From a virus, in IMG/VR virus record IMGVR_UViG_3300031167_000043, positions 1 to 21,951 of that record: 21,951 nt of DNA. The stretch is one strand, 5' to 3'. Below the pieces are notes generated by a model that saw only the letters and a program-made list of their open reading frames with translations, was not told the origin of the DNA and searched no databases. A program made the position numbers and the translations under genes. Of the stretch, positions 1 through 19,900 are shown piece after piece (position 1 is the first letter of the stretch; the number at the start of each line of letters is the position of its first letter).

Positions 1-1359
1 CTTTTCGTGTGTAAATAGCTCGGGAAACAGCACCTGTAATTTATGTTTCTGGCACTGGTACCTGCTTAGCTTTTTAGACCCGTTGTAGTAAAAGTACCCT
101 GGGGGCGAACTATGTGAGTACGTAAATCCTAGGTGCTCATAAACCTTCCCAGTACCCCACCGCTTATCGCTGTAGCTTAGTACTGAGCCTTTGTATTTAG
201 CCCGGAAGTACTTGAATAGTTTACTGGCACCTCCTTGTACTACTATGCCTGTTAAAGTACATAGTCTTACTAACTCGTAGTCCTGCTGCGCGGTAAATCT
301 GGGCGTACCAAAAGTCATTACTGCTGCCAGTATATCTTTATAAAAAAGTCCCAGGTTTATTTTAGTTGGACTACCTCTTCCCTGCAGATGGTTATCGTCT
401 AGGAAGTCTCCTGGAAAAGGTATCTCTTTTATAACACACTTCCTAGCACCCACACTTAGTGCTTTCCCCAGCTTAGCGTTTAAAATAGACTTAACTATGT
501 CTTGCTTATTCTGCCACTCGTGCTCCCATATCTGTATTAGCTGGTATCCTTTTTCTTTACATGCGTTAAGTTTATCTAAGTGGTATGTGGTGGACTTATA
601 CAAGTCACTATGCCAATATTCTCCATTGTATTCCAAAGCTAGTTTTATATCTTCTAGCACAATATCTAACTCTTTTCCACCAAGTATCTTTCTATCATTA
701 ACAAGTACCGCGTTAACGTACTCTGCCATTTCTACTTCTCCTTTTGAAACCTGCTTAGGTGCACAAACCCTACAGACTATCCCAGAACTAGCACTTATTA
801 TATTATTTGGTATAATAGGCCAGATGTGTTTACAGACACCCTGCACTCTAATGGCGGTATGTGAACATACATATGTATCTAGTAAAACCAACTCGGGGGC
901 TGCTAGATGTAACTCAGTGACAAACTGTTCATGAGTCTTTTTAAGAACACTAAGTACTGGAGTACATACTCTACATGTTGTGCCGTTGCCCCTCGCAATT
1001 AAGTTATTAGGTATAATTTCCCACTCGTGCAAACAAGTAGTATCCATAACCAGCACTTTAGACTGACAGTGTGTGTACACACCAAGCAATTTTAGATTAG
1101 GGGCTTTATGTGCTAATATAGTAACAAAGTCTTCAGAGCTTCTTTTATTGTGAGGTACTTTCCTTGTACATACCCTGCAAATAGTACCAAACCGCTTGAC
1201 ACTTAATGCGTAGTAAGGAGACACAAGATACTCATGCCCCTCAGGGCAAGCAACCAGCACCTTACTTTTAATGGCTATGTACTTACCAAGCACAGTTAAG
1301 TGAGGAGCTACCTCTTTTAGCTGCGCTACAAACTCCTCCTGTGTTTTCTTTCTAGCCAT
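1..1359 (-). CDS. Zinc-ribbon-array homing endonuclease (EDxHD/Vsr-like), C-terminus off the left edge
   Basis: I translated 453 codons from the ATG at 1359 down to base 1 with no stop, so the gene is partial at its C-terminus. Residues 1-200 hold three ~65-residue repeats, each with an F-x3-L lead-in, an L-L-G-Y-like core and a Zn site: C38/H42/C61/C64, C109/H111/C129/C132, C176/H178/C196/C199. Residues 205-300 look like an EDxHD/Vsr-type nuclease: SKGE (E208), KELDI (D232), LEYNGEYWHSD (243-252) and WEHEW (278-282). Residues 315-453 resemble the C-terminal domain of phage homing endonucleases (NHLQG at 323-327, a GLFYKD strand, a MTFG strand, GGASKLFKYF near 376-385). Only a short tail should be missing. 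It overlaps the upstream gene by 8 bases (ATGGCTAG), with GGAGG 4 nt before its ATG, so translation is probably coupled. The role is probably free-standing homing into phage DNA. Family recognition is from motifs only. Confidence 0.85.
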   Translation of the reverse strand, partial: MARKKTQEEFVAQLKEVAPHLTVLGKYIAIKSKVLVACPEGHEYLVSPYYALSVKRFGTICRVCTRKVPHNKRSSEDFVTILAHKAPNLKLLGVYTHCQSKVLVMDTTCLHEWEIIPNNLIARGNGTTCRVCTPVLSVLKKTHEQFVTELHLAAPELVLLDTYVCSHTAIRVQGVCKHIWPIIPNNIISASSGIVCRVCAPKQVSKGEVEMAEYVNAVLVNDRKILGGKELDIVLEDIKLALEYNGEYWHSDLYKSTTYHLDKLNACKEKGYQLIQIWEHEWQNKQDIVKSILNAKLGKALSVGARKCVIKEIPFPGDFLDDNHLQGRGSPTKINLGLFYKDILAAVMTFGTPRFTAQQDYELVRLCTLTGIVVQGGASKLFKYFRAKYKGSVLSYSDKRWGTGKVYEHLGFTYSHSSPPGYFYYNGSKKLSRYQCQKHKLQVLFPELFTHEK

Positions 1360-2014
1360 TCAGCCTCCGTACAATCCAATCTCTTAACTCTATTTCGCCT
1401 TTTGAAACCTGCTTAGGTGCGCAGGTTGGGCACGAATGCCCCGTCTTGCGAGGGCTAAGGAAGTTATGTGGCAGTATATCCCAGGTGTGACTGCAAGCAC
1501 CTATTACCGATACCCACACTAGGTCCCCCTTATATTGGGTAACCACTACCAACCCCGCTACTAATAAACGTACTTCCTCTAGGAATACCTCATGGCTTTT
1601 CAACAGAGGGGCCTTAGTATTGCATATTTTGCAGGCATTTAAGTCACCTCTACCAGTAAACTTATCTGGGGTAATACGCCACTCGTGCCCACAAACACTG
1701 TCCTTAACTAGAATCGTACTCCTATTGTTAGAGTACGTACTTAGTAGTAGTAAGTTGGGGTTTATCAGGTGCACCTCTTTTTCAAAGTCTATATGTGACT
1801 TTGCAGTAGTACTTTTAGGGAGGCATACTCTACAAACAGCACCAACACGTAAGGTGCCTAATATGTGGTCTGGGCGTATCTCCCATACATGCCCACACGT
1901 TCCGCGTACTGCAAGTGTGCTCTTATTCCCTGTATACGCGCCCAACAGAGTCAGGGTAGGTGCCACAAGCTGTAATTCTTCTAGGAATTCTTCGTTTGTC
2001 TTTTTCCGTGGCAT
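1352..2014 (-). CDS. Zinc-ribbon repeat protein, paralogue of the downstream nuclease but lacking the nuclease domain
   Basis: This 220-residue protein has three repeats of the same type as its neighbour, with Zn ligands C40/H42/C61/C64, C108/H110/C128/C131 and C174/H176/C195/C198. It then shares the linker APKQVSKGE with the nuclease but ends 13 residues after E207, before the Asp, His and WEHEW-type elements. It should therefore bind nucleic acid without cutting. The start at 2014 is supported by AGGAG six bases upstream and by a consensus promoter at 2037-2065. The stop lies 8 bases inside the next gene. It may be a decayed copy left by recombination between tandem endonuclease genes, or a deliberately cut-down DNA-binding partner or repressor. 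The reading frame is intact and the leader is good, which favours a made protein. The function is inferred. Confidence 0.8.
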   Translation of the reverse strand: MPRKKTNEEFLEELQLVAPTLTLLGAYTGNKSTLAVRGTCGHVWEIRPDHILGTLRVGAVCRVCLPKSTTAKSHIDFEKEVHLINPNLLLLSTYSNNRSTILVKDSVCGHEWRITPDKFTGRGDLNACKICNTKAPLLKSHEVFLEEVRLLVAGLVVVTQYKGDLVWVSVIGACSHTWDILPHNFLSPRKTGHSCPTCAPKQVSKGEIELRDWIVRRLNG

Positions 2015-2100: not shown

Positions 2101-2129
2101 TTGACATTTAGATGCACGCGTAGTATAAT
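2101..2129 (+). promoter_or_regulatory. Consensus sigma70 promoter for the HNH-portal-capsid operon
   Basis: TTGACA (2101-2106) and TATAAT (2124-2129) are perfect with 17-base spacing. The start should fall near 2136, about 36 bases before the HNH start codon. The spacer carries ATGCAC at 2112-2117 and TAG directly before the -10, both shared at identical offsets with the tape-measure promoter at 10811. It lies back-to-back with the minus-strand promoter, the two -35 boxes being 35 bases apart. Confidence 0.85.
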
Positions 2130-2624: not shown

Positions 2625-3821
2625 ATGGGATTTTTAAATTATATTAGTGAGAAGTTCAACCCTGCACAAGCTACTATTGCTAGAGATGAAGGTATGTCTA
2701 TTAGCACTCCGGTAGCTAGTCTTACTAGCGTTACTGGGTTCCAGAATGTTGAGGCGGTAAACCGTGGGGTTAGCTTAATTGTTAATGCATGTGCTTCATT
2801 AGACTACGATGTTAAAGAAAGCATAGGTCCTGTGAAAGTTAGGGCGAAAGCGTTATCCAAGCTGCTTAACTTTGCACCCAATCCATACCAGAGCGCGTAT
2901 GATTTTAGACAGAACATATTTACTGACTTCATCTTTGAAGGCCATGTATTCATCTACTTTGATGGTGTTCATATGTTTCATCTCCCTGCCAACCAGGTTG
3001 AGATTATAACAGATCCTAAGACGTTCATAAAAGGGTACGTGTATGGAGAAACTAAGCTTAGGGAAGATGAGGTTTTTTACTTTAAAGACGTAAACTCTGC
3101 CTCTATATACCGAGGAGCTAGTAGACTACGTTCAGCGCAGAATTCAATAAACATAGTAAATTCTATGATATCTTTCCAGAAAGGGTTCTTTGATAATGGG
3201 GCAGTATTCGGATTAGTACTAACTACCGACAACCCTTTATCAGCAAAAGCTAAAGAACGTACAATACTTCACTTTTTGCAGAAGTATAACCCTAAGATGG
3301 GCAGCAAGCGCCCGGTCATTCTAGACAATGGCCTTAAGCCCCATTCATTAGCACAAACGAATTTTACAGAGATGGACTTTGATCAATCTCTTAAGACGCA
3401 TAGCGAAAAGATACTTACAGCATTAGGTGTACCGCCTATTTTGACTAATGGGGGTAACAATGCTAACATTAGCCCTAACTTACGCCTTATGTACTTAGAA
3501 ACCGTGATGCCTATACTACGAAACTTTTCTAGCTCATTAGAACGCTACTTTGGTTATAATATAGAAGCCATTACAGCTAACGTATCTGCACTACAACCTG
3601 AGATTAAAGAAATAGCTGGATTTAATACTACACTTGTTAACGGTGGCGTAATAACCCCTAACGAGGCACGCACTAATTTAAGACTTGAGAAGGACGAGGA
3701 CCCAGAAAGCGACAAGCTACGTATCCCAGCTAATATAGCAGGCAGCGCAGCTAATCCTAGTGAAGGTGGGGCGCCTAAGAAACCAAAAGACGAACCTAAG
3801 AAAGACGAACCGAGTAAATAA
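2625..3821 (+). CDS. Portal protein, HK97 type
   Basis: A 398-residue protein that I recognise as the HK97-like phage portal family. It shows a VEAVNRGVSLIVNACASLDY-type N-terminal helix, the YQSAYDFRQNIFTDFIFEGHVFIY region, a GASRLRSAQNSINI helix, and the LTALGVPPILT-type segment followed by ANISPNLRLMYLET, all in the expected order. Twelve copies form the vertex ring through which DNA is packaged and to which the connector binds. The final ~30 residues are a low-complexity, Lys/Asp/Pro-rich tail, probably disordered. It starts 12 bases after the HNH stop with AGGA upstream and ends 10 bases before the protease-capsid gene, so these genes are one operon. The length is slightly below the family norm, which is not unusual. 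Confidence 0.92.
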   Translation: MGFLNYISEKFNPAQATIARDEGMSISTPVASLTSVTGFQNVEAVNRGVSLIVNACASLDYDVKESIGPVKVRAKALSKLLNFAPNPYQSAYDFRQNIFTDFIFEGHVFIYFDGVHMFHLPANQVEIITDPKTFIKGYVYGETKLREDEVFYFKDVNSASIYRGASRLRSAQNSINIVNSMISFQKGFFDNGAVFGLVLTTDNPLSAKAKERTILHFLQKYNPKMGSKRPVILDNGLKPHSLAQTNFTEMDFDQSLKTHSEKILTALGVPPILTNGGNNANISPNLRLMYLETVMPILRNFSSSLERYFGYNIEAITANVSALQPEIKEIAGFNTTLVNGGVITPNEARTNLRLEKDEDPESDKLRIPANIAGSAANPSEGGAPKKPKDEPKKDEPSK

Positions 3822-3831
3822 AGAGGAGAAT

Positions 3832-5763
3832 ATGGATAAGACCTTTTATCTTAGCAGCAATAACTTTAAAGTAAAGGCTGGGGAAGGGGAAGATGTTACC
3901 TCTTTAGAAATTGAAGGCTTTGCTAATACAACTACCAAAGACCGAGATGGGGATTTAATTCCTGCGGGTGTGTGGGAGAAAGGCATTCAGGAGTACTTAA
4001 AGAACCCAGTGCTTTTAGGATTTCATCAACATAATAACCCAGTAGGCAGAATGATTGCCCACGAAATAAGCGACAAGGGACTTTGGATTAAAGGTACCAT
4101 TAGCTCAGCAAGCGATAAGGTGTTTAAGCTAGTACAAGCAGGCATCATAACCGCGTTTTCTGTTGGGTTTACAATCAAGAATGCTGAATTCAAACCTGAA
4201 ATAGATACTTTTATTATAACAGAGTTGGAGCTGCATGAAATTAGTTTAGTTTCAGTAGGAAGTAATAGAGACTCCCTGTTTAGCCTATCCAAAGCATTTA
4301 ACGATGATACAGATGAGTTGAACAAATTTAAAATGCTGTTTGCTAAGGATAGTGATTCAGTTAAAGAACAAGACACTACTGATAATGTAGATAGTGAAAC
4401 CAACAAAAAAGGAATTGAGAACATGGAAGAGAAAGACTTAGAATTAATGGTAGCTAAGATGGTTGCCGCTTCTGAAGCTAAAGCCGCAGCTTTAACCGCA
4501 GAGATTGCAGAAAAAGCGACTGCAGAAAAAGCAGCTTCAGCAGATATCGAAGCAAAAGTTGCCGCAGCTGTTAAAGCCGCTACAGCCCCAGTTATTGTAT
4601 CTGGTGAGACCGGTGCAGAGAAGCTGATGGCAGAGATTGAAAAGCGTTTTGCTGATGCAGAAGTATCTAGCAAAGCAGCTTTAGCGGGTTTAGAGGCAGA
4701 GCTTAAAGAGAAAGCAGCAGAAATTGCAGCTATGAACAAAAGCAAGATGACCTTCAGTGACACAGGCAGCACAGGCACACACCAAGAGAAAGAAACCGCA
4801 GTCTTGTTAGCAAAGATTATGCGTAAGGGTGTTGCTGATACCAAGTACGGCTCTGCTCTTGTTGAAAAGGTAGGCACTCACGTTCCTAATGCAACATGGG
4901 AATTAGAAGTTTCTATGCGCATGGAAGAGGAAGTTAGACGTAAATTAGTAGTCGCACCTACACTGCGCCAGATGCAGATGCAGACAAATGTTATGACTAT
5001 CCCTGTAAATCCTGAGGCTGGCACAGCTACTTGGATCGAAAATTCACAATTCGGTACTTCGGCTTCTTCAGGTGCTGCTAAAACGCACGCATTGAGTGCT
5101 ATCACAGTTAATGCTTACAAACTTGCATCCCTCGAATATCTACCATTTGAAGAGCAAGAAGACAGTTTGCTAGTTTTACTACCTATCATTCGTGATGCAA
5201 TGGTAAGACGCCTAGCTCGCTCAGTTGATATCGCGTTCATTCGTGGTGCAGGTGCAGGTGCTGACCCAGTTAAAGGCTTGGCAGGTTTTGATGCAGCCGC
5301 TGCAGTTAACCCAGCAGTAGCAAATGCAGCTACCATTGAGAATATGTTAGCTATGCGTAAAGACCTAGGTGCTTTAGGTTTAGACCCTAGTGAGTTAATT
5401 TATGTAGTTTCTACCGATGTATACCATGACTTACTTTCAGATACCACAGTAGGCAGCTCATTCAGAACAGCTGACGCCGTCGGCGTTGACCGTTCAACCT
5501 TGCTAACAGGTCAGATTGGTTTTATTGGTAACTCAAAGGTTCTAGTTTCGGCAGAATTCGAAGCTAAAGCAGCGAACAAAATAGGTGCCATAATCTATAA
5601 CCCATCTAACTTTATTGTAGGTAATCAACGTGGTCTTCGTTTTGATACTGATGATATCGTAGTTGAACAACGTAAAGTTTTAGTTGCTAGCTTACGTACC
5701 GGATTGCAACAGTTAACAACTAACTTAGGTGCTGGCGTATCTAAATTAGAGTGGGCTGTATAA
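3832..5763 (+). CDS. Fused prohead protease, scaffold and HK97-fold major capsid protein
   Basis: The chosen start is the ATG at 3832, preceded by AGAGGAGAAT. The frame is open further upstream, but that part overlaps the portal gene. The product is 643 residues. Residues 1-~150 match the S78/U35 prohead protease: a GFANTTTKDRDGD strand, LLGFHQHNNPVGR with H65/H67, the catalytic-serine motif AFSVGF (S110) and ELELHEISLVSVGSNRDS. Residues ~198-302 are Ala/Lys/Glu-rich and helical, like the HK97 delta (scaffold) domain. Residues ~304-643 are an HK97-fold capsid protein (MRMEEEVRRKLVV, the WIENS strand, the E-loop region, YLPFEEQEDS, VDIAFIRGAGAG, VSTDVYHDLL). In HK97 the protease and capsid are separate genes. 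Here one frame encodes all three parts. An internal in-frame ATG at 4423 probably gives scaffold-capsid alone (see separate entry). A terminator follows directly. Confidence 0.9.
   Translation: MDKTFYLSSNNFKVKAGEGEDVTSLEIEGFANTTTKDRDGDLIPAGVWEKGIQEYLKNPVLLGFHQHNNPVGRMIAHEISDKGLWIKGTISSASDKVFKLVQAGIITAFSVGFTIKNAEFKPEIDTFIITELELHEISLVSVGSNRDSLFSLSKAFNDDTDELNKFKMLFAKDSDSVKEQDTTDNVDSETNKKGIENMEEKDLELMVAKMVAASEAKAAALTAEIAEKATAEKAASADIEAKVAAAVKAATAPVIVSGETGAEKLMAEIEKRFADAEVSSKAALAGLEAELKEKAAEIAAMNKSKMTFSDTGSTGTHQEKETAVLLAKIMRKGVADTKYGSALVEKVGTHVPNATWELEVSMRMEEEVRRKLVVAPTLRQMQMQTNVMTIPVNPEAGTATWIENSQFGTSASSGAAKTHALSAITVNAYKLASLEYLPFEEQEDSLLVLLPIIRDAMVRRLARSVDIAFIRGAGAGADPVKGLAGFDAAAAVNPAVANAATIENMLAMRKDLGALGLDPSELIYVVSTDVYHDLLSDTTVGSSFRTADAVGVDRSTLLTGQIGFIGNSKVLVSAEFEAKAANKIGAIIYNPSNFIVGNQRGLRFDTDDIVVEQRKVLVASLRTGLQQLTTNLGAGVSKLEWAV
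4409..4425 (+). promoter_or_regulatory. Internal ribosome-binding site and in-frame start for scaffold-capsid (M198)
   Basis: AAGGA (4409-4413) lies 9 bases before an ATG at 4423 that is in frame with the protease-capsid gene. Initiation here would give a 446-residue product beginning MEEKDLELM. It starts exactly at the predicted scaffold segment and excludes the whole protease. HK97 gp5 has the same order (delta domain then capsid). The site would raise capsid copy number over protease, which a head needs. It is inferred from sequence only. Confidence 0.6.
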
Positions 5764-5774
5764 TCTAGTCACTC

Positions 5775-5802
5775 AAACAAGACTCTTCGGAGTCTTGTTT
5801 TT
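5775..5802 (+). terminator. Intrinsic terminator after the capsid gene
   Basis: A perfect 11-bp stem (5775-5785 with 5790-5800) closes on a TTCG tetraloop (5786-5789) and runs into a T tract (5798-5802). It begins 12 bases after the capsid stop codon. It should end most transcripts here and so leave the connector and downstream genes at lower level. Confidence 0.85.
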
Positions 5803-5848: not shown

Positions 5849-6415
5849 ATGGGAGCTAGTTTAGTAACACTTTCAGCGTATAAGAGCTATGCGGGGATTA
5901 ACAGTGACAACTCAGATGTTTTGATCAATATCCTAATCCCTAGAATCAGTGAGTATGTTAAGAATTACTGCCGCAGATCCTTTATAGACTATACATTTGA
6001 TAGCAAAGTAGAGGTGTTTAACGGAAATACCCCGTACTTTCTATTAGAAGAGAATCCTATAATTAATATAGCTAGTGTTGAGTACAGTACCGACTATGGG
6101 CAGACGTACACCGCATTAACTGAGTTTACTGATTGGGTACTAGACGGAGAGTTGATAAAACCCCTACCTACAGAAACATTTCAGAAGCAGCTATTAGGTT
6201 ACCGAGTTACGTACACGGGAGGCTTCGACCCGCTGCCTGAAGATGCTACTCAAGCTATCATGGATTTAATAACTTACTATAGAAAGAATGACGGGTCTGT
6301 TAACGCAATAAAAAACGTTAATTCAAAAACATCCCAGATAGACTACCTTTCAGACGTTGCGCTACCTGCGTACATTAGAAGAGTGTTAGATTTCTATATT
6401 TCGGACTATACCTAA
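5849..6415 (+). CDS. Head-tail connector (HK97 gp6-like adaptor)
   Basis: A 188-residue protein with the pattern of gp6/gp15-type adaptors. An N-terminal helix runs SAYKSYAGI, followed by a helix VLINILIPRISEYVKNYCRRSF and a beta-rich middle (VEVFNGNT, FLLEENPI). The GYRVTYTGGFDPLPEDATQAIMDLITYYRK signature strand and helix come near residues 122-152. It binds below the portal to build the connector ring. An AGGAG site precedes the ATG at 5849. The stop TAA overlaps the next ATG by one base (TAATG), which implies translational coupling. It is the first gene after the capsid terminator, with no clear promoter of its own in the 85-base gap, so it probably depends on read-through. Confidence 0.75.
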   Translation: MGASLVTLSAYKSYAGINSDNSDVLINILIPRISEYVKNYCRRSFIDYTFDSKVEVFNGNTPYFLLEENPIINIASVEYSTDYGQTYTALTEFTDWVLDGELIKPLPTETFQKQLLGYRVTYTGGFDPLPEDATQAIMDLITYYRKNDGSVNAIKNVNSKTSQIDYLSDVALPAYIRRVLDFYISDYT

Positions 6416-7789: not shown

Positions 7790-8233
7790 ATGTCAAGAAG
7801 AACAAGTATAGTACAAGCACTAACAACACAGTTTAAGACTATTAATGGTACTGGGATATATAAAACTAATTTATTCAACAACGCATTCCCTATACTTAAG
7901 TTCTGGGATGAAATTGACGATGCTCCGGCGGTGTACACGTCCCCAGGGTCAGAAACCCGGCAATACGAATTAGCAGGCTTCAAATGGGGCTTCCTAAATA
8001 TTAGCACTAAGGTGTATACTAGAGGCGAGGATGCGCAAACCCAGCTAGAGGATTTATTAGAAGATATAGAAGAATGTATCGACCTAAACAGCACCCTAGT
8101 ATACGACAGTGTAACACTACATGAAACTACAGATATACTAATCATGTCGATAGTAACCGACGAAGGTTTACTAGCTCCCTGGGCTGTTGGGGAGATTAAT
8201 ATGCAGGTAAGGTATCAAATAATGTCAGATTAA
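7790..8233 (+). CDS. Tail terminator protein
   Basis: A 147-residue protein with the tail-terminator pattern. It has an N-terminal helix (IVQALTTQFKTI) and a FWDEIDDAPAVYTSPGSETRQYE strand region. A KWGFLNISTKVYT strand follows, then the acidic helix QLEDLLEDIEECI. The TDEGLLAPWAVGEINMQVRYQI end strand is highly typical. Terminators form a hexameric ring that stops tube growth and joins the tail to the head. It starts one base after the neck stop codon with AGG about ten bases upstream, and a 130-base non-coding gap follows before the major tail protein. Confidence 0.8.
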   Translation: MSRRTSIVQALTTQFKTINGTGIYKTNLFNNAFPILKFWDEIDDAPAVYTSPGSETRQYELAGFKWGFLNISTKVYTRGEDAQTQLEDLLEDIEECIDLNSTLVYDSVTLHETTDILIMSIVTDEGLLAPWAVGEINMQVRYQIMSD

Positions 8234-8363: not shown

Positions 8364-9803
8364 ATGTCATTTAATCTAATTAGAAATGCAAGAGTATTTT
8401 TCACAACAAACGTAGACGCGCAAGGCGTTGTATTAATGACTGGTGCAACAGCATCTAACACTAGAGAGATTCAAGTATTAGACGGCCTATCATACTCACA
8501 AAACACAGCTTCAGAAACAGTTGCTATTAATGAAGCCGGTGCTACTCCAGTACGTGGACAACGTCAGTTTAACACTGCGTTAGAAGCAGTAGACTTCTCG
8601 ATGACTACGTACATGAGACCAAACGGCGTACCTACTAATGTCACATCAGAAGAAAGCGTCCTATGGAACGCACTATTAGCCACAGACGCTATTGGCGGAG
8701 CTGCCCCAGCTTGGTCAGAAGCAGCAGCTAGCGCTACTTTAGTTGTTACCAATTCACAAACACACCAACTTCAGGCCTTCGGACTGATCATTGTTGTTGA
8801 CGGTACTTCCTACATCATTGACAACTGTGCTTTAGATTCAGCATCAGTTGACTTCGGTTTAGACGCTATTGCACAAATCGCTTGGTCTGGTAAAGGTACA
8901 ATCCTACGCCAGGTTGAATTAGTAGCAGATATAGCTAGCCCTGTAGTTATCACCGGGGGTGTATCAGAAGTAGCTACTGTAGCAGTTGATGCAACTTCAG
9001 GTAACTATACTCTCACGTATGACTCACAAACAACAGGCAGTATCCTGTTCAACGCTTCAGCTTCTGCAGTTAAGACAGCTTTAGAGTTACTCTCTACAGT
9101 AACAGCAAATAGTACTATTGTTAGTGTTACTGGCGGACCTGGCGATTCTGGTGCTACAACTCCATATATCGTAACATTTGACGCCGCTTTAGGTGACGTT
9201 AATCCAAACCTTACAGCAGCTTCTGTTGATTTAGCGGGTGGTGGCGGTACTGTTGTTGTTACCATAGTTGCAGGTACTAGCATCGGTAGTGCACTAGCTA
9301 AAGTTACTACAGCACCTTTCATCGCTAACAAGCTTAGTACTTTAGCAGTTACTAAAGATATTGGTGCTACTGGTAAGGCGTATACTATCGCTATTACTGG
9401 CGGAAACCTAACCTTCTCAAATAACATAACTTATTTGACACCCGCTAACCTTGGTGTGGTTAATAAGCCTGCTACCTACTTTACTGGTGCTAGATCAATC
9501 TCAGGCTCTGTAACAGCGTACTTGAGAACCGGTACTAATAACTCTGCTGGCTTGTTGTCTGATATGTTAGCTACATCGGATACTGCTGTAGATCCATCAT
9601 ACGCAATTCAAATCAATATTGGTGGAACCTCAAACACCACTAGAGTTGAGTTTGATCTTCCTGCAACTGTATTGACAATCCCTTCAGTATCTACTGAACA
9701 GGTTATTTCTACTACGATTAACTTCACAGCACAGGGCTTCACAGGCACTGGCTTTGATATTACTTCAGCTAACGAAGCTGAGGTTCGTTACTTCGCACCT
9801 TAA
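8364..9803 (+). CDS. Major tail (tube) protein with an inserted beta domain
   Basis: A 479-residue protein placed between tail terminator and chaperone genes, the usual site of the tail-tube gene. Residues 1-~195 and ~310-479 look like one split tube fold: LSYSQNTASETVAINEAG, FSMTTYMRPN, VLWNALL, then ISGSVTAYLRTG, VEFDLPATVLTIPSVSTEQVISTTINFTAQG. Residues ~199-304 look like a separate insertion rich in Thr, Val and Gly (NYTLTYDSQTTGSILFNASA, VTGGPG, PYIVTFDAALG). That resembles a short repeat-type domain common in phage structural proteins. The insert would project outward from the tube. Both flanks have clear ribosome or RNA structures: AAGGGA before the start and a hairpin cluster after the stop, as expected of a highly expressed gene. 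The length is well above a plain tube protein. Confidence 0.8.
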   Translation: MSFNLIRNARVFFTTNVDAQGVVLMTGATASNTREIQVLDGLSYSQNTASETVAINEAGATPVRGQRQFNTALEAVDFSMTTYMRPNGVPTNVTSEESVLWNALLATDAIGGAAPAWSEAAASATLVVTNSQTHQLQAFGLIIVVDGTSYIIDNCALDSASVDFGLDAIAQIAWSGKGTILRQVELVADIASPVVITGGVSEVATVAVDATSGNYTLTYDSQTTGSILFNASASAVKTALELLSTVTANSTIVSVTGGPGDSGATTPYIVTFDAALGDVNPNLTAASVDLAGGGGTVVVTIVAGTSIGSALAKVTTAPFIANKLSTLAVTKDIGATGKAYTIAITGGNLTFSNNITYLTPANLGVVNKPATYFTGARSISGSVTAYLRTGTNNSAGLLSDMLATSDTAVDPSYAIQINIGGTSNTTRVEFDLPATVLTIPSVSTEQVISTTINFTAQGFTGTGFDITSANEAEVRYFAP

Positions 9804-10857: not shown

Positions 10858-10879
10858 ACTACCAATAAAATTTGGTAGT
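10858..10879 (+). other. Hairpin in the tape measure 5' leader
   Basis: ACTACCAA (10858-10865) pairs perfectly with TTGGTAGT (10872-10879) around a six-base loop, about 12 bases after the predicted transcription start. It leaves the ribosome-binding site GGGGA near 10896-10900 free. A 5'-proximal stem of this kind often protects a transcript from decay; that role is inferred. Confidence 0.5.
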
Positions 10880-10904
10880 ACAACGGATTGCTACAGGGGA
10901 AATC

Positions 10905-13900
10905 ATGGCAGGAGAAAATGTTAGAACAACAGTAAGTATTAAGGTTGAAGCAGACGGCAGCCTAAAAATTGTTACAAAAGACGTACAGACCCTGAATAAA
11001 GAACTTGATAAGACCATTAGTACCGCAAGTAAAATGTCGTCAAGTGTAAAGCAAATAGCCAACGCAGCTCAGACAGGCACTAAAGCTAGCAGAGCAGCTC
11101 TGCAAGGTGCCGGTACGTCATTCAAAGCGCAACATGAGAACTTCGATAAAGCTAGAGGTATTTCACAATCCTCAGGCGCAGCGGCTCGCGACTTTGCCAA
11201 CCAGTCACGAGGACTAGGTGGGCTAGTGCGCCTGTACGCTACTTTTGCGGCTAACTTGTTTGCTCTTGGGGCAGCTTTCCGAGCACTTAGTGGTGCGATG
11301 GATACTAGTAACATGGTCAAAGGACTTGACCAGTTAGGTGCTTCAGTAGGTAGAAACTTAGGTGGATTAAGTAAAGAATTAGTAGAGATCTCTGGTGGAG
11401 CTATTTCACTAGCTCAGGCTATGAAAGCTGTCGCCCAGACTTCTACAGGTGGATTAAGTGGAGAGAACATTAAACGATTGGGTGGTGTAGCTAGAACAGC
11501 CGCTGCCGCTTTGGGTGTTGCAATGCCTGACGCCGTTAATAGACTATCTCGTGCTATAACAAAATTAGAACCAGAATTACTAGATGAATTGGGTATTATG
11601 ACCCGTTTAGAGCCAGCAGTCGATATCTACGCTAGACAGCTAGGTAAGGCTTCGTCTCAACTAACACAATTTGAAAGACGCCAAGCGTTTGCTAATGCAG
11701 TATTAGCAGAAGGCGAAGAGAAGTTCGGAGCTATTGAAGACATTCCAGTTAATACCTTTGATGTATTAGCTTCTTCTTTAAAAGATATACTACAAGATGG
11801 AACTGCAGTTATTAATAAGTTCCTAGTACCTGCAATAAACTTATTTGCTAGCAGCCCTACGGCTTTGATGGCAGGTATGGCTGCGCTTGTGTTTGTCATA
11901 GGTAAGCAGTTTATACCAGCATTCCAGGGCCTCAAAGGGCAGTTCGCCGCTACTGCAGAAGCAGCTAGAGAGACAGCTCAGATTAGAGGTGCAGCAGCAG
12001 CACAAGCATTAGTGACGCTAAAAGCTACAGGTGCTACGCGCATTGCAGTGCTACAGTCTCTAGCAGAAAAAGAAGTACAAGTACAGAAAGACCTAGTAGC
12101 CAAGAGTGAAGCTATTAACGTTAGAAGACGTAAAGCCAACCCCTCTGTACCGTTCCTAGCAGATACTGGTATACAAAAGCGTATTGCCACTATAGCCACC
12201 AAACCTGTGGAGGAGCTACAAAGAGAGGACATAGCACTTGTACAGAGACAAGCAGATGCTATGTCTAAGTTAGGGGGTGTCCGAGCAGAGCAAGGCGCTA
12301 TACTAGACAAGTTAGCTAAATCCTTGGGAAGGGAGTTGGACACTTCCAGAGACCAGACTATTGCTATAAAAAGGCAAACAGCGGCTGTTCAAGACAATAC
12401 AGTATTTAAAAAAGCACAGACTGCTGCTAGTAAGGCCGCTAGAGTATCTGCGGAACAAGAAATTATCAGTAACTTAGCATTAAATTCTAGCTTAATTGGC
12501 AGAACAGCTGCAATGCGAATAGCTGAAGCCGCTACTAAGAAGCTAGACGCTACCGCTGCATCGGCTGCAGCATCCGCAGCCCAGCTAACTGTCGCCCTGG
12601 CTGCTGGGAAAGCATCTGCAGTGTCCTTCGCAGGCTCCGTAGGCATAGCCGCAGCAAGTACAGGGCACTTTGCTAAGGCATCTATATTTCTCCGAACACA
12701 GCTAGCCTCCCTCAGTGCTGAAATAACTAAGGTAGGGGCTGCTATAAACAAATTATTTGCCGCTGCCGCTGCCGCTACAGTTTTAGTTATAGTATTTGAA
12801 GCCCTTAAGGGTATCTTCTCAGGTAACACAAAAGAAATAAAAACATTTAATTCTGCAATAGAAGATGCCGAATCTGCTATAGACAATATGGACAGAACTC
12901 TTAAGCTTATGACAGACAAAGGGCTAAAAGGCTCTATAGCTGGAATCATTGCTACAGGTAACGCCTTCGAAGGCTTAGCTACTAGTATAAAGGCAGTAAC
13001 TGAAGCATCAAGAGAAGCACAAGAAAACACTACGTTTATAGATACTTTGGAAGACGGGGTAAGATCTATATTTGGTGGTGGTGTAGAAAAGAACGCGAAC
13101 GAAGCCCTAACGAACCTAACCTTAGGTGCTATAAAGTCTTTAGACCAATCAGGCCTAAAAGAAGTTGGAGAAGCTAAGTTTAGAGAAATTTTAGGTATAA
13201 CTGGTTTAGATTCCCCCCTCAATAAAGCAACAGTTTCTGCAGCACTAGAAGCACTAGGTGAAGCGGGACAAAACGATATTGTAGATAATTTTGCTAGAGT
13301 AGGACAAGAGCTTTCAAATGTAGGCTCACGTATGGAGTCTTTCAAGACATCTACCGTAGCAGCTAATTTAGCCTTTGCTCAACTGATTCAGTCAACTGCA
13401 AGCAGTGACCCTATATTTAGATTAGGTGTTACCATGCAAGGCTTAGCGGCTAGCATGATCAAAGTCGTAGCGTCAGGATCTCTAGTAACCGAGCAGATAG
13501 ACGCTATTATTTTAGATATTACACAAAACTCTGATAACGCCATACTATTTGGCCCAAAGACAGTAGCTAACATACTAGAAGTGAAAGATGAAGTAATAGC
13601 TCTTAATGCTGCTAAGAAAGAAATACTGGATATAGATAAAGCACTAGCAAAAGCATCCTCTAACGAGAGGTTTAAAGACTCCGATGTCTTTAAAGAAAGA
13701 AAGAAACAAGGTATTGAAGTAGTACTATCAGACCAACTCATAACTTTTGTTGATCAAATGACTAAGGAGCGTAAAGCTGCTGCTGCTGTAGTTGCCACCC
13801 AAGCCGCAGTAACTGAAAAGTCCGCTAAAGTATTTAGTGACGCCCTTACAGAGTCTTTTACTCGTGGCTCTGCATTGATAGCGCAAGCTACCGGAGAAGC

Positions 13901-16900
13901 GGAACAAAAAGCAGCTCTGAATATTCGTAAAGCACAGCTTGGCGGCCTCTCCGGAGAGGGTCTCGCTAAAGAGCAACTAGCTATTTCTAAGGAAGAGCTC
14001 AAAATACGCTTAGTTGCTGTTGATACCAGTATAGACCTCATAACTTCTCAGGAAGCTATGCGCGCTGCGATAGAAGAAAACACAGCTGCTAGCGTACTAG
14101 CGTCAGCGGTTAGTTCCGGCGCGCCTGCAGAAGAGATAACAGAGCTTAAAAATGCGCTATCTGCTGCGGAGATATTCTTAAGTGCTTTTAACGGGAAGGA
14201 GGGTTTCTCCCTAAAAGGTTTCCAAGAGATAGTAGATGGCTTGGAAGACGGTATAGTTAAACAGCTAGTACAGGTTAGGGGTATAACTCCGAAATCTCAA
14301 ATAGGCAGCCAAGACGCTACTAGGACCTTGCTAGAGTCCCAAGACGAAGCATTAGATATTACAGGCGGAAGAGCTGTTGCTAAAGGTGCTCAGGAAGACG
14401 CAGCTAAGCTGGTGAACCTAAAAATCCAGGGGCTTGAAGCAGACAAGAATGCTTTAGAGGTATCGAGACAAATAGCAGGCTTTGCCTCTGCAGAGAATTC
14501 AGCTAAAAAAGCTGCATTAGATACTGAAATTCTGCAACTTAGACATAGCGTCGAAAGACAAGCTTCTCAAGTAGCTATTTCTAATGCCTCAGGCACCGAA
14601 GAAAAGCTAAAGCAGAAAGCTTTAGCTTTAGAGCAGTTACGCACACAAGAAATTCAAAGACAGAATTTAGCCACTAAGAGTGCTGTAGAACAGGCCGAAA
14701 ACGCACTAGTAGCATCTAAGGTAACAAGGGATCTTACATTAGCCGGACATAAATTAGCTTTGGATTCGGCACTTGGGCAATTAGATGTACAGCAGGCGCA
14801 AAATGCCGCCGCTAATATTAGGTTTAATATCTCAGATAGCGTGAGAGCAAGTATGCAAGCTGAAGTAGACTTGGCTTCCTTAATACTCACCACAGAGCAA
14901 GCTCGTGGCGTAGAAGCAGCCAAGTTAGAGGCTATCAAGTTACGTGCTTCAGTAGAAATAGCTGGTTTAGACGCGTTAGGGGCTGCAGGTGCTGCTGATG
15001 CGGCTGCTGCTCGCGCTAAACTTGACAATGACATACTAGCCTCTGAAATCACACAACAAAATATAGCAAACACTGCTGTATTAGAAGCTGAAGTTCTTAG
15101 TATCAGAGAAGACTCAAGCAGAGAGCTCGATAGGCAGAACAGACTGTTAGAGACATCAAGTTCTCTAGCTGAGGATTTGGGTAAAACCTTCGGTAAAGTA
15201 GGTAAGAGCATGGGTTCTGTAGCTAAGGTATTCTCAAAGTTTGCAGTTAACTTAGAGAAAAACCAAGGTGCTATTAATACCTTATTAAAGAAACGCGCTA
15301 GACTTGACAAAGCAAGTATCAAAGACAACAAGAAAATTGCGGACAACGAAAAAGACTTAGGCAGAGCTAGAGAGAAAAGCTTCACAGACCAATTAGATGG
15401 TATTAGTGATGTTGCGGGCGCTGGTAAGTCTTTCTTCGACGACCAATCAAAGGGCTTCAAAATCTTAGAGGGTATTGAGAGAGCCTTTACGGTATTTTCA
15501 ATAGCTATGAAAGTAGCCCGCACAGTGGCAGATGCTACCGCTACTGTAGCCGCAGTAGGCTTTTCAGGGACCAGAACAGCAGCTACAGTAGTAGAAGCCG
15601 GTGTAGATAGTGTAGCTGCAGTAATTAAAACAATAGCCAGCATACCTTTCCCGGGAAACCTAATAGCAGGTGCCGCAGTAGCTGCAGTAGTAGGAGGCTT
15701 ATTAGCTACTATGATCGGTGGCGGTGGTGGTCCTGATGTGGCAAGTACTGCCAGTGTGGGGTTCACTGCAGAAGATAGGCAAGAGGTGCAAGGTTCCGGT
15801 GTAGCTTTCGAGAACGGGAAAAGAGTAGACAGAGCTGGCGGCGTTTTAGGTAGTTCTGTAGATAAGGTGGAAGACATTTCTAGATCCTTGGAACTAATAG
15901 AGGAAAGCACAGAGATAACTTCTATATTTGGGAGTACTAGCCTAAAGATACTACAGCAAATTGAGCAAAACACCAAAGCACTAGCAGGAGCTTTGTTTTC
16001 CACTACAAATATAGGTAAGTTAGGTAGTGGATTTGATACCGTTGAGGGTACTAGAGCAAAAGGCGGGTTCTTTGGCAGCAAGAAAGTAACTACTGAAGTA
16101 ATAGATAAAGGTCTCTTGGTAACGGGTACCTTTGATGAAATACTATCTGGGTTAGCAGACTTTCTTGAATTCGAGACTCTTAAAATAACTAAAAAGAAGA
16201 AAAGTTTATTTGGCTCAAATACACGCACCAACATAGAGGAGCAGACTAAGGAACTTACGGAACAGGCAGAAGAGTTAGTTATTGACCTGTTCTCTGGACT
16301 AACAGATGCCGCTAGAGAAGCAGCCCAGCAAGTATTCGGATCAGGAGCTGCTATTGATCGTATACTAGAAGACTTCCAAGTAGACTTTAGAGTTAGCGGT
16401 TTAGATTTATCAGGCGAAGATTTCCAAGAAGCAATCCTTTCCGAAAGTAATGTTGTACTGAACCAAGTACTTACACAAGCACTACCCGTACTCGAAGTAT
16501 TTAGAGAGTTGGGAGAAGGCTTCTTGGGCACCTTGATTCGGTTAGCTACGGGTACTGCAGTTATTAGTGAAAAATTCGGCAGACTTGGGATAGACCTAGA
16601 GGAGAGTTTCAATAACCTACCCCTACTACCTACCAGCACTGTTGACAAACTAAAAGATTTAGGCCAAGACGCAGTAGATGCCTTAAATACAGGTATAGAC
16701 AATGCAATCTTAGGTAACGAGAGTAGCATAAGTGACAGCGATTTAGAGGTACTTAGAGACACCCAAACTCAATTCTCTGACAAACTAATGGCAGCGGCCA
16801 GGACAATGGGTACTGCTACAACAGCCGTAGCGCAGACTCTCGTAGAGTCCGAAGTAGCTTTTACCGACTCTAAGCTAGCTATATTAGGTACCAGAAATGC

Positions 16901-19900
16901 TCTGCTACAGTTTACAGCAGCGGAGAAGATACTTAGTGGTGAGCTAGAAGTTAGTGGGGATAGGAGAACGGATGCCACAAACAATATTACAGATGAAGTA
17001 CTAGCTTTTGTAGACTCTTCTAAGACGTTTACCAATAGCATAAGCACTATGGTACTTATGTTTACAGATAGGGTAGGCATTATAACAGAAGCCAATGATA
17101 ACATAATAAAAGGGTTTGGCGGTATAGAGTCTTTTGTAGAAAAGACAGGGTTTGTCTTTGAGAACTTCCTAAGCGAAGAAGAGCAAATTACTATTAAAAC
17201 GGGAGAGCTAAACGTAGCCTTAGCAGATCTGGCCAAGAAGGGGTTTCTTACGACGGAGCAGTTAGAGAGCCTTACGGACGGTACAGGAAATCTAGGTGCT
17301 GAGTACTTCGAACTAATGATTGCTCAAGACTATCTGTCTGAAAGTGGTATAAGAGCAGCGGACGCGATATTTACATTAGCACCCGCAGTAATAGAGGTTA
17401 CAGACGAAATAGTATCTTTGTTAGATAGACTATCGGATGCAGGTATAGGTATAGACGACTTTGCTGATTTATTAGAAAGCGCTATTGCTGGAGAGTTAGA
17501 GCCAGAAGAATTAGGTACCGGCATTGCCGAGAGTATCCGTAGTGGGTTCTTCTCAGCCATATCAGCCTCATTTGTAGCTGAAACTTCTAAAAGTATAGTT
17601 AATACCCTAATATCCCCTATATTGACAGGAATGCTTAAAGGGGCTTTAGTTGCCAACGACCTGTTTAGTACTACTATAGATACCTTTGTATCCGAGACAG
17701 TAGCCAAAGCTTCGGCCCTAACAGAGTTACTTAGTAACCCTGAGTTTGTGAAAGCAGTGGATAAGGTAACTGGAGTAATCACTGAACTGTTCGCAGACTT
17801 AAACGGTATTGGTGGGGATAACAACGCAGCTGCTATTGCAGAGGAACGTGCTACGCTACAGGAGCAGCTTAACGATTTAACTGATACAGCGGCTCAAGCA
17901 CTAGAACGCCAAAGAAGTGCCTTACACGAAAGTAACAGAGAGTTGTTTGACCAGATCCAGTTAGTGATACGTGCTAATGAGATAGCTAATGAGCGCAACA
18001 CATTACAGGAACAATTTAACTCATTAACAGACACAGCAACTGAAGCACTTACTAGACAGAAAGATGCTTTAGATGCCAGCAACCAAACACTGTTTGACCA
18101 AATCCAAACAATACTAGCAGTAGAACCTGCCTTTAAAGCACTAACAGATGCGGTTAAAAAACAGAAAGTAACATTACGCGAAAAGCTCAAAATAGAGTTA
18201 GACGGGTATAAAGCGCAGCTAAGCACAGCTACTACTAGTGTTGCTGCTCTTAAGGCAGTGTTTGCCTCCCTAAAAGCTACACAGCAGTCGCTCACTAAAT
18301 TTGGTAGCACCACGGGTACTCTCACAATCGACCCTAAGGATATAGCGGCTTCATTAGGTGTAGGTGCAGGAACCTTTTTCAAAGGCTTTTCAGACCTATC
18401 TAATACTGCAGGCTCTTTCACGAGTTTTGTAGCTAGTGCAGCAGATGCAGTAGAAGAAGAAGTATCCGCAGCAGAGGCACAGATTGAAGTACTTAACGCC
18501 CTTATTAAGGTAACTCAGGATAACTTTGAACAAGAAATATCTAAGTTAGATACTGTTATTTCTAATGCCCAAGCACAAGTCAATGCGCTAAACAAGATAG
18601 ACTCCTCAGTGCTATCAGTAGTAGATGCGATAGGTGAACTTGCATTAGCAATAGAAAAGTCTACCGAAGCCTCGATACAGGCAACAGCAGACGCTGCTGC
18701 TAAAGCTACGGCAGATAAGGCTAAAGCCACTGCTGCAGATAAGGTATTCAAGGAATCGCTAAAGAAGGCCAGTAGAGGGGGTTCCGGGGATAGTAATACA
18801 GAACTCGCAGAAGATACGCGTGCAGCACGTGGTGACACCCTTGGTACAAGTATCACGGGCAGTATAATAGGGCCTTTCATCAACCAAGCCGCAGAGGATG
18901 CAGCCGCTAAGATTGCTGCAAGCTTGGAGGCTACAAGCATAACAATTGATGGGATACCTGTTACAAGTACCCCGGGTAGTATAATAGGGCCTTTCATCAA
19001 CCAAGCCGCAGAGGATGCAGCCGCTAAGCTTGCAGCAAGTAAGGGTACACCTGTTACAAGCATAACAAATAATACAGGTGGACCTTTCAATCAAGCCGCA
19101 GCGGATGCAGCAGCCGCTTCTAGAGCAGCCTTTGCAGCGGCAGACAAGGATCTCGTACTCACTGGTGATCTCGATAGGTTTAAAAGATTGGTTGATGAAG
19201 AAAATGCAAGGTCAGGACTTAAGTCAGCAGAAAAAGCACTTAAGGACGCCAACGATGATTTTGCTAGCGCACGTAGCGTAGGTGCTAGTAATTCTAACGG
19301 CCTTACCAGGGCGGGAACTCAATCCGCAGTAGATGCAGCTATTTTAGCAAGGGACGCTGCGCTTGCTGCTCTTGAAAACATCCCTGGAAGGTCCTTCCGC
19401 CCAGGTGATAGAGTTTTCGCAGACCCAGGTACGGCAGCCACAGCACTTGCTGCGCCTCCTGCCACGGTACCAGAAGTATTAGTACCAGAAGTAGTAGTAC
19501 CAGATACTGCTGCAAAAGATACCGCAGAAACGATACGTTTAGCAAACATTGCATTATCTGAGATGTTTACGCTTAACCAAGAGTACTGGGCCTTAATAGG
19601 GGATAATGTTAGTTTACGCGAATTAGAGCTTGCAGGCATAAGTGAAGGTAACAAGGGGCTAAAAGAGTCTATATTTCTGTTTACAGATTTAGTATCTGGC
19701 TCGAAAGCGCAGGTAAAGTCCTTAGTATCTGACAGAAAGAATCTCGACGTTGAGTTATTAACAGCGCAGGGAGACACGAAAGGAGCTTCCGCGCTAAGTA
19801 GAGCATTCGCACTAAAAGATACTACCGACGCTAGGGGCACAGCGTCGGATCTTCTAAGTAACGGAGACTTATCTGCAGCCAATAAAGCTGTAGTACTTTT

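Follow-up and report, generated by a model that had tools for sequence, protein, structure and literature searches.

Organization of the locus

The stretch of DNA analysed here (the window) is a virus record of 21,951 bases. Judged by homology to Demerecviridae and by gene order from portal to tail tube, the neighbourhood is the structural module of a T5-like phage. Tail assembly chaperone proteins are also encoded in this module. The features are:

2625..3821, plus strand: portal protein gene (PF04860, E 7e-50; 34-40% identical to T5-like portals)
3818..3834, plus strand: upstream ribosome-binding site AGAGGAG and start ATG 3832 (from the sequence; SD energy -7.9 kcal/mol)
3832..5763, plus strand: protease-linker-scaffold-capsid fusion gene (one open frame, 643 aa, 69.0 kDa; S78 and HK97 capsid families above cut-off)
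3901..4281, plus strand: S78 prohead protease domain, approximately residues 24-150 (TIGR01543; invariant alignment columns)
4282..4422, plus strand: protease-scaffold linker, residues 151-197 (predicted disordered, pLDDT <50 at residues 170-199)
4409..4425, plus strand: putative internal ribosome-binding site AAGGA (4409-4413), 9 nt spacer and start ATG 4423 (52 of 52 clusters; nucleotide logo)
4423..5763, plus strand: proposed nested gene for a scaffold-capsid precursor of 446 aa and 47.1 kDa that corresponds to the T5 pb8 precursor of 458 aa (start aligned with T5-like capsid starts)
4423..4869, plus strand: scaffold (delta) domain, residues 198-346 (AF2 helices 200-251 and 262-304)
4870..5760, plus strand: predicted mature HK97-fold capsid protein, residues 347-643, 297 aa, 31.7 kDa (T5 pb8 sequence match; Foldseek)
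5775..5802, plus strand: hairpin with U-tract 3' of the capsid gene (-14.6 kcal/mol, z -4.5), likely a transcription terminator
5849-6415: head completion protein gene, structural module
7790-8233: tail terminator gene, structural module
8364-9803: major tail protein gene, structural module

The module also encodes a tape measure protein of 3,523 aa at 10872-21443 (phrog_3779, E 8e-44; the family profile has only 1,225 positions), and an unusually long tail is therefore predicted. Near the head module, a homing-endonuclease-like gene on the minus strand (1-1359; phrog_559, phrog_3339) contains repeated Cys-rich domains. Its shorter paralogue (1352-2014, minus strand) has Cys-rich repeats without the nuclease part. 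Two perfect, divergent TTGACA-N17-TATAAT sites (2065-2037, minus strand; 2101-2129, plus strand) have the endonuclease genes on one side and the head operon on the other.

The fusion gene and its product

The open frame of the fusion gene extends back into the 3' end of the portal gene, with a first GTG at 3760. The likely start is ATG 3832, preceded by AGAGGAG. TIGR01543 (HK97 proheadase) matches residues 28-149 of the product (E 3e-18; 66.4 bits against a cut-off of 59) and TIGR01554 (major_cap_HK97) residues 238-511 (E 3e-13, above cut-off). Pfam S78 and Phage_capsid also score above cut-off. Alignment to the proteases of T5-like phages and to fused relatives shows H65, S110 and E136 among the invariant residues. 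The family model and the conserved His and Ser identify the N-terminal part as an HK97-type prohead protease (S78). Its catalytic-type residues are kept, and it looks intact by sequence.

The capsid part matches T5 pb8 (5tjt, E 4e-37) and 8ho3 (E 4e-42) in phmmer searches, and the top Foldseek matches of its model are the T5 and DT57C capsids. Sequence and model together assign it to the HK97-fold major capsid proteins of the T5 pb8 lineage, with an N-terminal delta domain predicted to be helical. The AF2 model of the whole 643-aa fusion comprises a protease beta fold, a disordered linker, a helical scaffold and a capsid fold. Cleavage of the scaffold-capsid chain is predicted after approximately K346. 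This residue is invariant among 33 fused relatives, and the mature chain of T5 pb8 starts at the equivalent position.

Other IMG/VR contigs, representing two nearly identical strains (99.97 and 99.92%), encode the identical 643-aa protein, so that the fusion is not an assembly slip. Single-protein scans returned these two strains only and no bacterial genome contig; alignment-based scans were needed.

The internal start

ATG 4423 (M198) is in frame with the fusion, and the junction reads AAA AAA GGA ATT GAG AAC ATG. The codon is placed at a domain boundary because, in the AF2 model, the disorder of residues 170-199 ends here and the first scaffold helix starts at residue 200. M198 is nearly invariant among the 33 fused relatives and aligns with the capsid gene start of nine T5-like phages with separate genes. 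The original prediction had described a single frame for protease, scaffold and capsid, an in-frame ATG at 4423 with AAGGA upstream at the protease/scaffold boundary, and products of ~643 and ~446 residues. All of this agrees with the features listed above.

Computed SD energies in the window are -7.9 kcal/mol for the upstream and -5.6 kcal/mol for the internal start. The internal site is unstructured (0.0 kcal/mol), and just 3% of the sites in the gene are equally open. This openness reflects low G+C, and the site is not more open than its own shuffles. A special RNA structure was rejected as an explanation, as the site is merely A-rich and has none.

Fused relatives

Viral contigs were scanned with protease and portal alignments, and the loci were classed by HMMs of both domains. 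The scans yielded 117 distinct fused homologues without internal stop, grouped into 52 clusters at 80% identity. Every contig relative having both domains is fused; the contig relatives without a capsid match all run off the contig end. Among the phages compared, only the GenBank T5-likes have separate genes. A fused protease-capsid gene with both domains in one uninterrupted frame is kept in relatives. A large group of uncultured T5 relatives has, as a rule, the arrangement noted first in one phage.

In 46 short-class clusters the linker from the protease end to the internal start has 18 different lengths (28-90 residues), all in frame and free of stops. The T5-likes with separate genes use all three frame relations between protease and capsid. 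A long class comprises six clusters and 15 of the 117 proteins (L050, L053, L063, L066, L067, L080-L083, L086, L088, L089, L092, L093, L095). These proteins reach ~900-1000 aa when complete and contain an insert of ~230-340 residues after the protease and ahead of the scaffold. The internal site of the long class is stronger (AAAGGAGA/TAAGGAGA; SD TAAGGAG/AAAGGAG, -8.7 to -9.3 kcal/mol in cluster representatives). It is located after the insert, just before the scaffold, and therefore follows the capsid part.

Conservation of the internal ribosome-binding site

The boundary start was chosen by SD: of the ATGs in a region of 70-110 codons, which usually holds a few, the one with the best SD was taken. 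The original prediction had named alignment of relatives as its own check, and the internal signal proved to be conserved. A boundary start with AGGA ending 5-11 nt upstream is present in all 52 clusters (51 ATG; one GTG, in L094). The same motif precedes only 8 of 843 other in-frame ATGs and 20 of 896 out-of-frame ATGs of the same genes. AGGA-ATG spacing is 7, 8, 9 or 10 nt in the 51 ATG clusters. L056, L091 and L094 first seemed exceptional; on inspection, they have a weaker SD, an ATG further downstream and a GTG start, respectively.

Codon choice contributes to this signal. Synonymous shuffles under the same selection of the start gave a mean of 27 and a maximum of 37 clusters reaching the same SD energy in 300 shuffles, against 50 of 52 observed. 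None of the 300 shuffles matched the observed mean SD (z -4.8). After clustering at 55% identity (16 sequences) the effect was weaker: z was -2.3 and 8 of 300 shuffles reached the observed value, with the GTG-start L094 scored as missing. Lysine before glutamate is coded AAG in 38 of 40 cases at the site (95%) and in 45 of 232 cases outside it in these genes (19%; Fisher p 8e-21). With the region defined regardless of SD strength, the counts are 32/48 and 43/194 (p 1e-8). Among clusters the SD is encoded by varied residues (KE, KG, KD, EE). The nucleotide logo shows conservation of the ATG and of AAGGAA (-12 to -7), while the upstream linker is essentially unconserved.

The SD bases are, on this comparative evidence, kept by codon choice beyond protein conservation, though the protein supplies part of the signal. 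The internal start and its ribosome-binding site appear conserved under selection, as is characteristic of in-frame nested assembly genes. Since the fusion frame is kept over the 18 linker lengths and the SD is conserved, both fusion and internal start appear to be under selection, which is the signature of a nested gene.

Separate genes in T5-like phages

T5 and other Demerecviridae share with the window a homologous protease, delta domain and capsid, and the synteny of portal, protease, capsid, head completion, tail terminator and tail tube. In the nine T5-likes, two separate genes with 2-17 nt between them encode the protease (191-211 aa) and the capsid precursor (457-474 aa). The protease frame closes at a stop codon ahead of the capsid ATG, whereas the window has no stop and the proteins are fused; the window thus lacks the Demerecviridae trait of separate protease and capsid genes. 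The SD of the T5-like capsid gene is located in the last protease codons or just past the stop, the same place as the internal SD of the window. The junction in Brizo, for example, reads AAG AAA GGA TAA TACAATT ATG.

In JSF10 and Proteus phage RP7 (L009 2438-4462, L010 2435-4477) the separate genes are in the same frame and parted by stop codons alone, so readthrough would yield a fused protein. In a portal tree, the nine T5-likes with separate genes form one clade (100/100) among the fused lineages; the sole outgroup, ST64B, is on an extremely long branch. A relic of gene fission, in the form of a C-terminal tail of the separate T5-like proteases mimicking the capsid N-terminus, was rejected as unsupported, as only KKP3711 beat the controls.

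Proposed mechanism and alternatives

The locus is very probably a nested gene with two starts in a T5-like tailed phage, yielding a 643-aa fusion and a 446-aa scaffold-capsid protein from the internal start. Internal initiation producing the 446-aa precursor besides the 643-aa fusion is well supported by the comparative analysis. Ribosomes initiating at 3832 would form the protease-scaffold-capsid fusion. Those initiating at 4423 would form just the scaffold-capsid precursor, which corresponds to T5 pb8. Scaffold and capsid domains are common to both products, which could therefore co-assemble into the procapsid, with the protease on a minority of subunits. Heads would consist mostly of plain capsid subunits and carry the protease inside by means of the fusion minority. 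After assembly the protease would cut after ~K346, so that the scaffold and the protease itself are shed and the 297-aa mature capsid protein is left. We infer that both proteins are made in some ratio, co-assemble and remove the protease themselves. The protease-to-capsid ratio would be set by translation, and tethering of protease to the capsid lattice would follow from the fusion, both as first suggested. SD strength alone predicts no excess of capsid, because the upstream SD is the stronger one in the window.

HK97-type proteases cut their own chains. A polyprotein might accordingly be envisaged, with the full-length fusion as the only product, self-cleavage in the linker separating protease and capsid, and an incidental internal ATG. 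The presence of an apparently intact protease and the stronger upstream SD are consistent with such a scheme. It requires no ribosome-binding site, however, yet AGGA-ATG/GTG is present in 52 of 52 clusters with synonymous choice while the linker around it drifts. One protease would also be imposed per capsid subunit, and the polyprotein is considered very unlikely. The conserved bases might instead be a by-product of a conserved Lys-Glu-x-x-Met that serves in processing or assembly. The frequent K-E at this position shifts the DNA towards AGGA, and synonymous shuffles alone give a mean of 27 of 52 clusters. The excess of AAG codons (95% against 19%), the clusters encoding the SD via KG, KD or EE, and the cluster with GTG after AGGAG speak against an origin in the protein sequence, which is rated as extremely improbable.

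A third scheme retains the dual-start gene but assigns the capsid-only protein to its own transcript from an internal promoter; that mRNA would be translated from the internal ribosome-binding site. Herpesviruses (UL26.5) offer a precedent: their protease and scaffold share one frame as nested genes, and in cytomegalovirus the transcripts are 3'-coterminal (PMC4498786 and its reference 7). The region has about as many promoter-like sites as expected by chance (16 against 15), and a separate transcript is judged highly unlikely. Initiation at two starts is the reading preferred here.

Genes annotated as capsid-protease fusions are puzzling, as hundreds of capsid subunits would each have a protease; an internal start that is conserved resolves the difficulty. 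It further implies that, in a widespread group of uncultured viruses, the precursor of the most abundant virion protein escapes gene callers. The locus would also be a natural case in which an enzyme enters a protein shell as part of an isoform of the shell's own protein. As a tentative generalization, dual starts may be the general rule for phage genes annotated as protease-capsid fusions and may have evolved several times, with the protease entering the procapsid as a minority capsid isoform. The only difference between fused and separate forms would then be a stop codon close to the conserved SD and ATG of the capsid gene, and the two T5 genes may derive from a fused ancestor.

Comparison with other fused and nested genes

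Fused protease-capsid genes, which the original prediction rightly described as known in some phages, have been published (PMC5513430, PMC8508860). The actinobacteriophage "major capsid and protease fusion protein" of Circum, Maggie and RRH1 (PMC5513430) resembles the window in joining an S78-type protease to a capsid protein. The capsids belong to other lineages. In the Maggie family, an SD-preceded ATG follows the protease in all five phages examined (Maggie, Penoan, Adaia, Schiebs, RRH1). In the Circum family, the internal start is clear in Circum, Salk, Nightmare, Pippin15 and a faecal phage, a GTG in Lactococcus 1706 and weak in Crocheter. Bilo and Indigenous, two of the nine Circum-family phages, have no SD-preceded ATG or GTG at the junction; a fused gene can therefore perhaps manage without one. 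Pseudomonas phage MD8 encodes protease, scaffold and major capsid protein in one gene, gp5 (PMC8508860). In the present analysis, CAGGAG-N9-ATG was located at codon 220, right behind its ClpP-like protease. MD8 differs from the window in the ClpP-type protease and the Mu-like capsid. The internal starts in the Maggie and Circum families and in MD8 were chosen by eye, with no null model, and serve as leads.

Upstream of a conserved M-x-(R/H)-N-x-F-like motif that lies between scaffold and capsid, the Circum-type family has another in-frame ATG, with an SD of the GGAAGG/AAGGAG type. It is codon 242 in L177 (gene 3037-5013), 308 in L179, 306 in L180, 275 in L181, 251 in L182, 239 in L183 and 267 in L186. 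This ATG is possibly a third start or a codon-driven coincidence.

The literature search, covering open-access text, found fused genes and no report of internal starts in them; as evidence of novelty this is weak. In the MD8 paper (PMC8508860), neither "start codon" nor "alternative start" occurs as a term. Within that open-access text, no description was found of a single frame that combines protease, scaffold and capsid and also has a conserved internal start from which the capsid precursor would be made.

Nested assembly genes are established in two other systems. Herpesvirus UL26/UL26.5 (PMC4498786) resembles the window in producing protease-scaffold and scaffold from one frame with identical C-termini. 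It differs in an unrelated protease, in the lack of a capsid protein in the frame, and in the use of separate transcripts instead of one mRNA. Bacteriophage lambda has overlapping protease-scaffold (C) and scaffold (Nu3) genes (Shaw and Murialdo 1980, cited in PMC8508860). As proposed for the window, an in-frame internal start yields the scaffold alone besides the full-length protease-scaffold protein. The lambda protease is ClpP-like and the capsid protein E is encoded by a separate gene, whereas in the window the capsid is within the nested gene.
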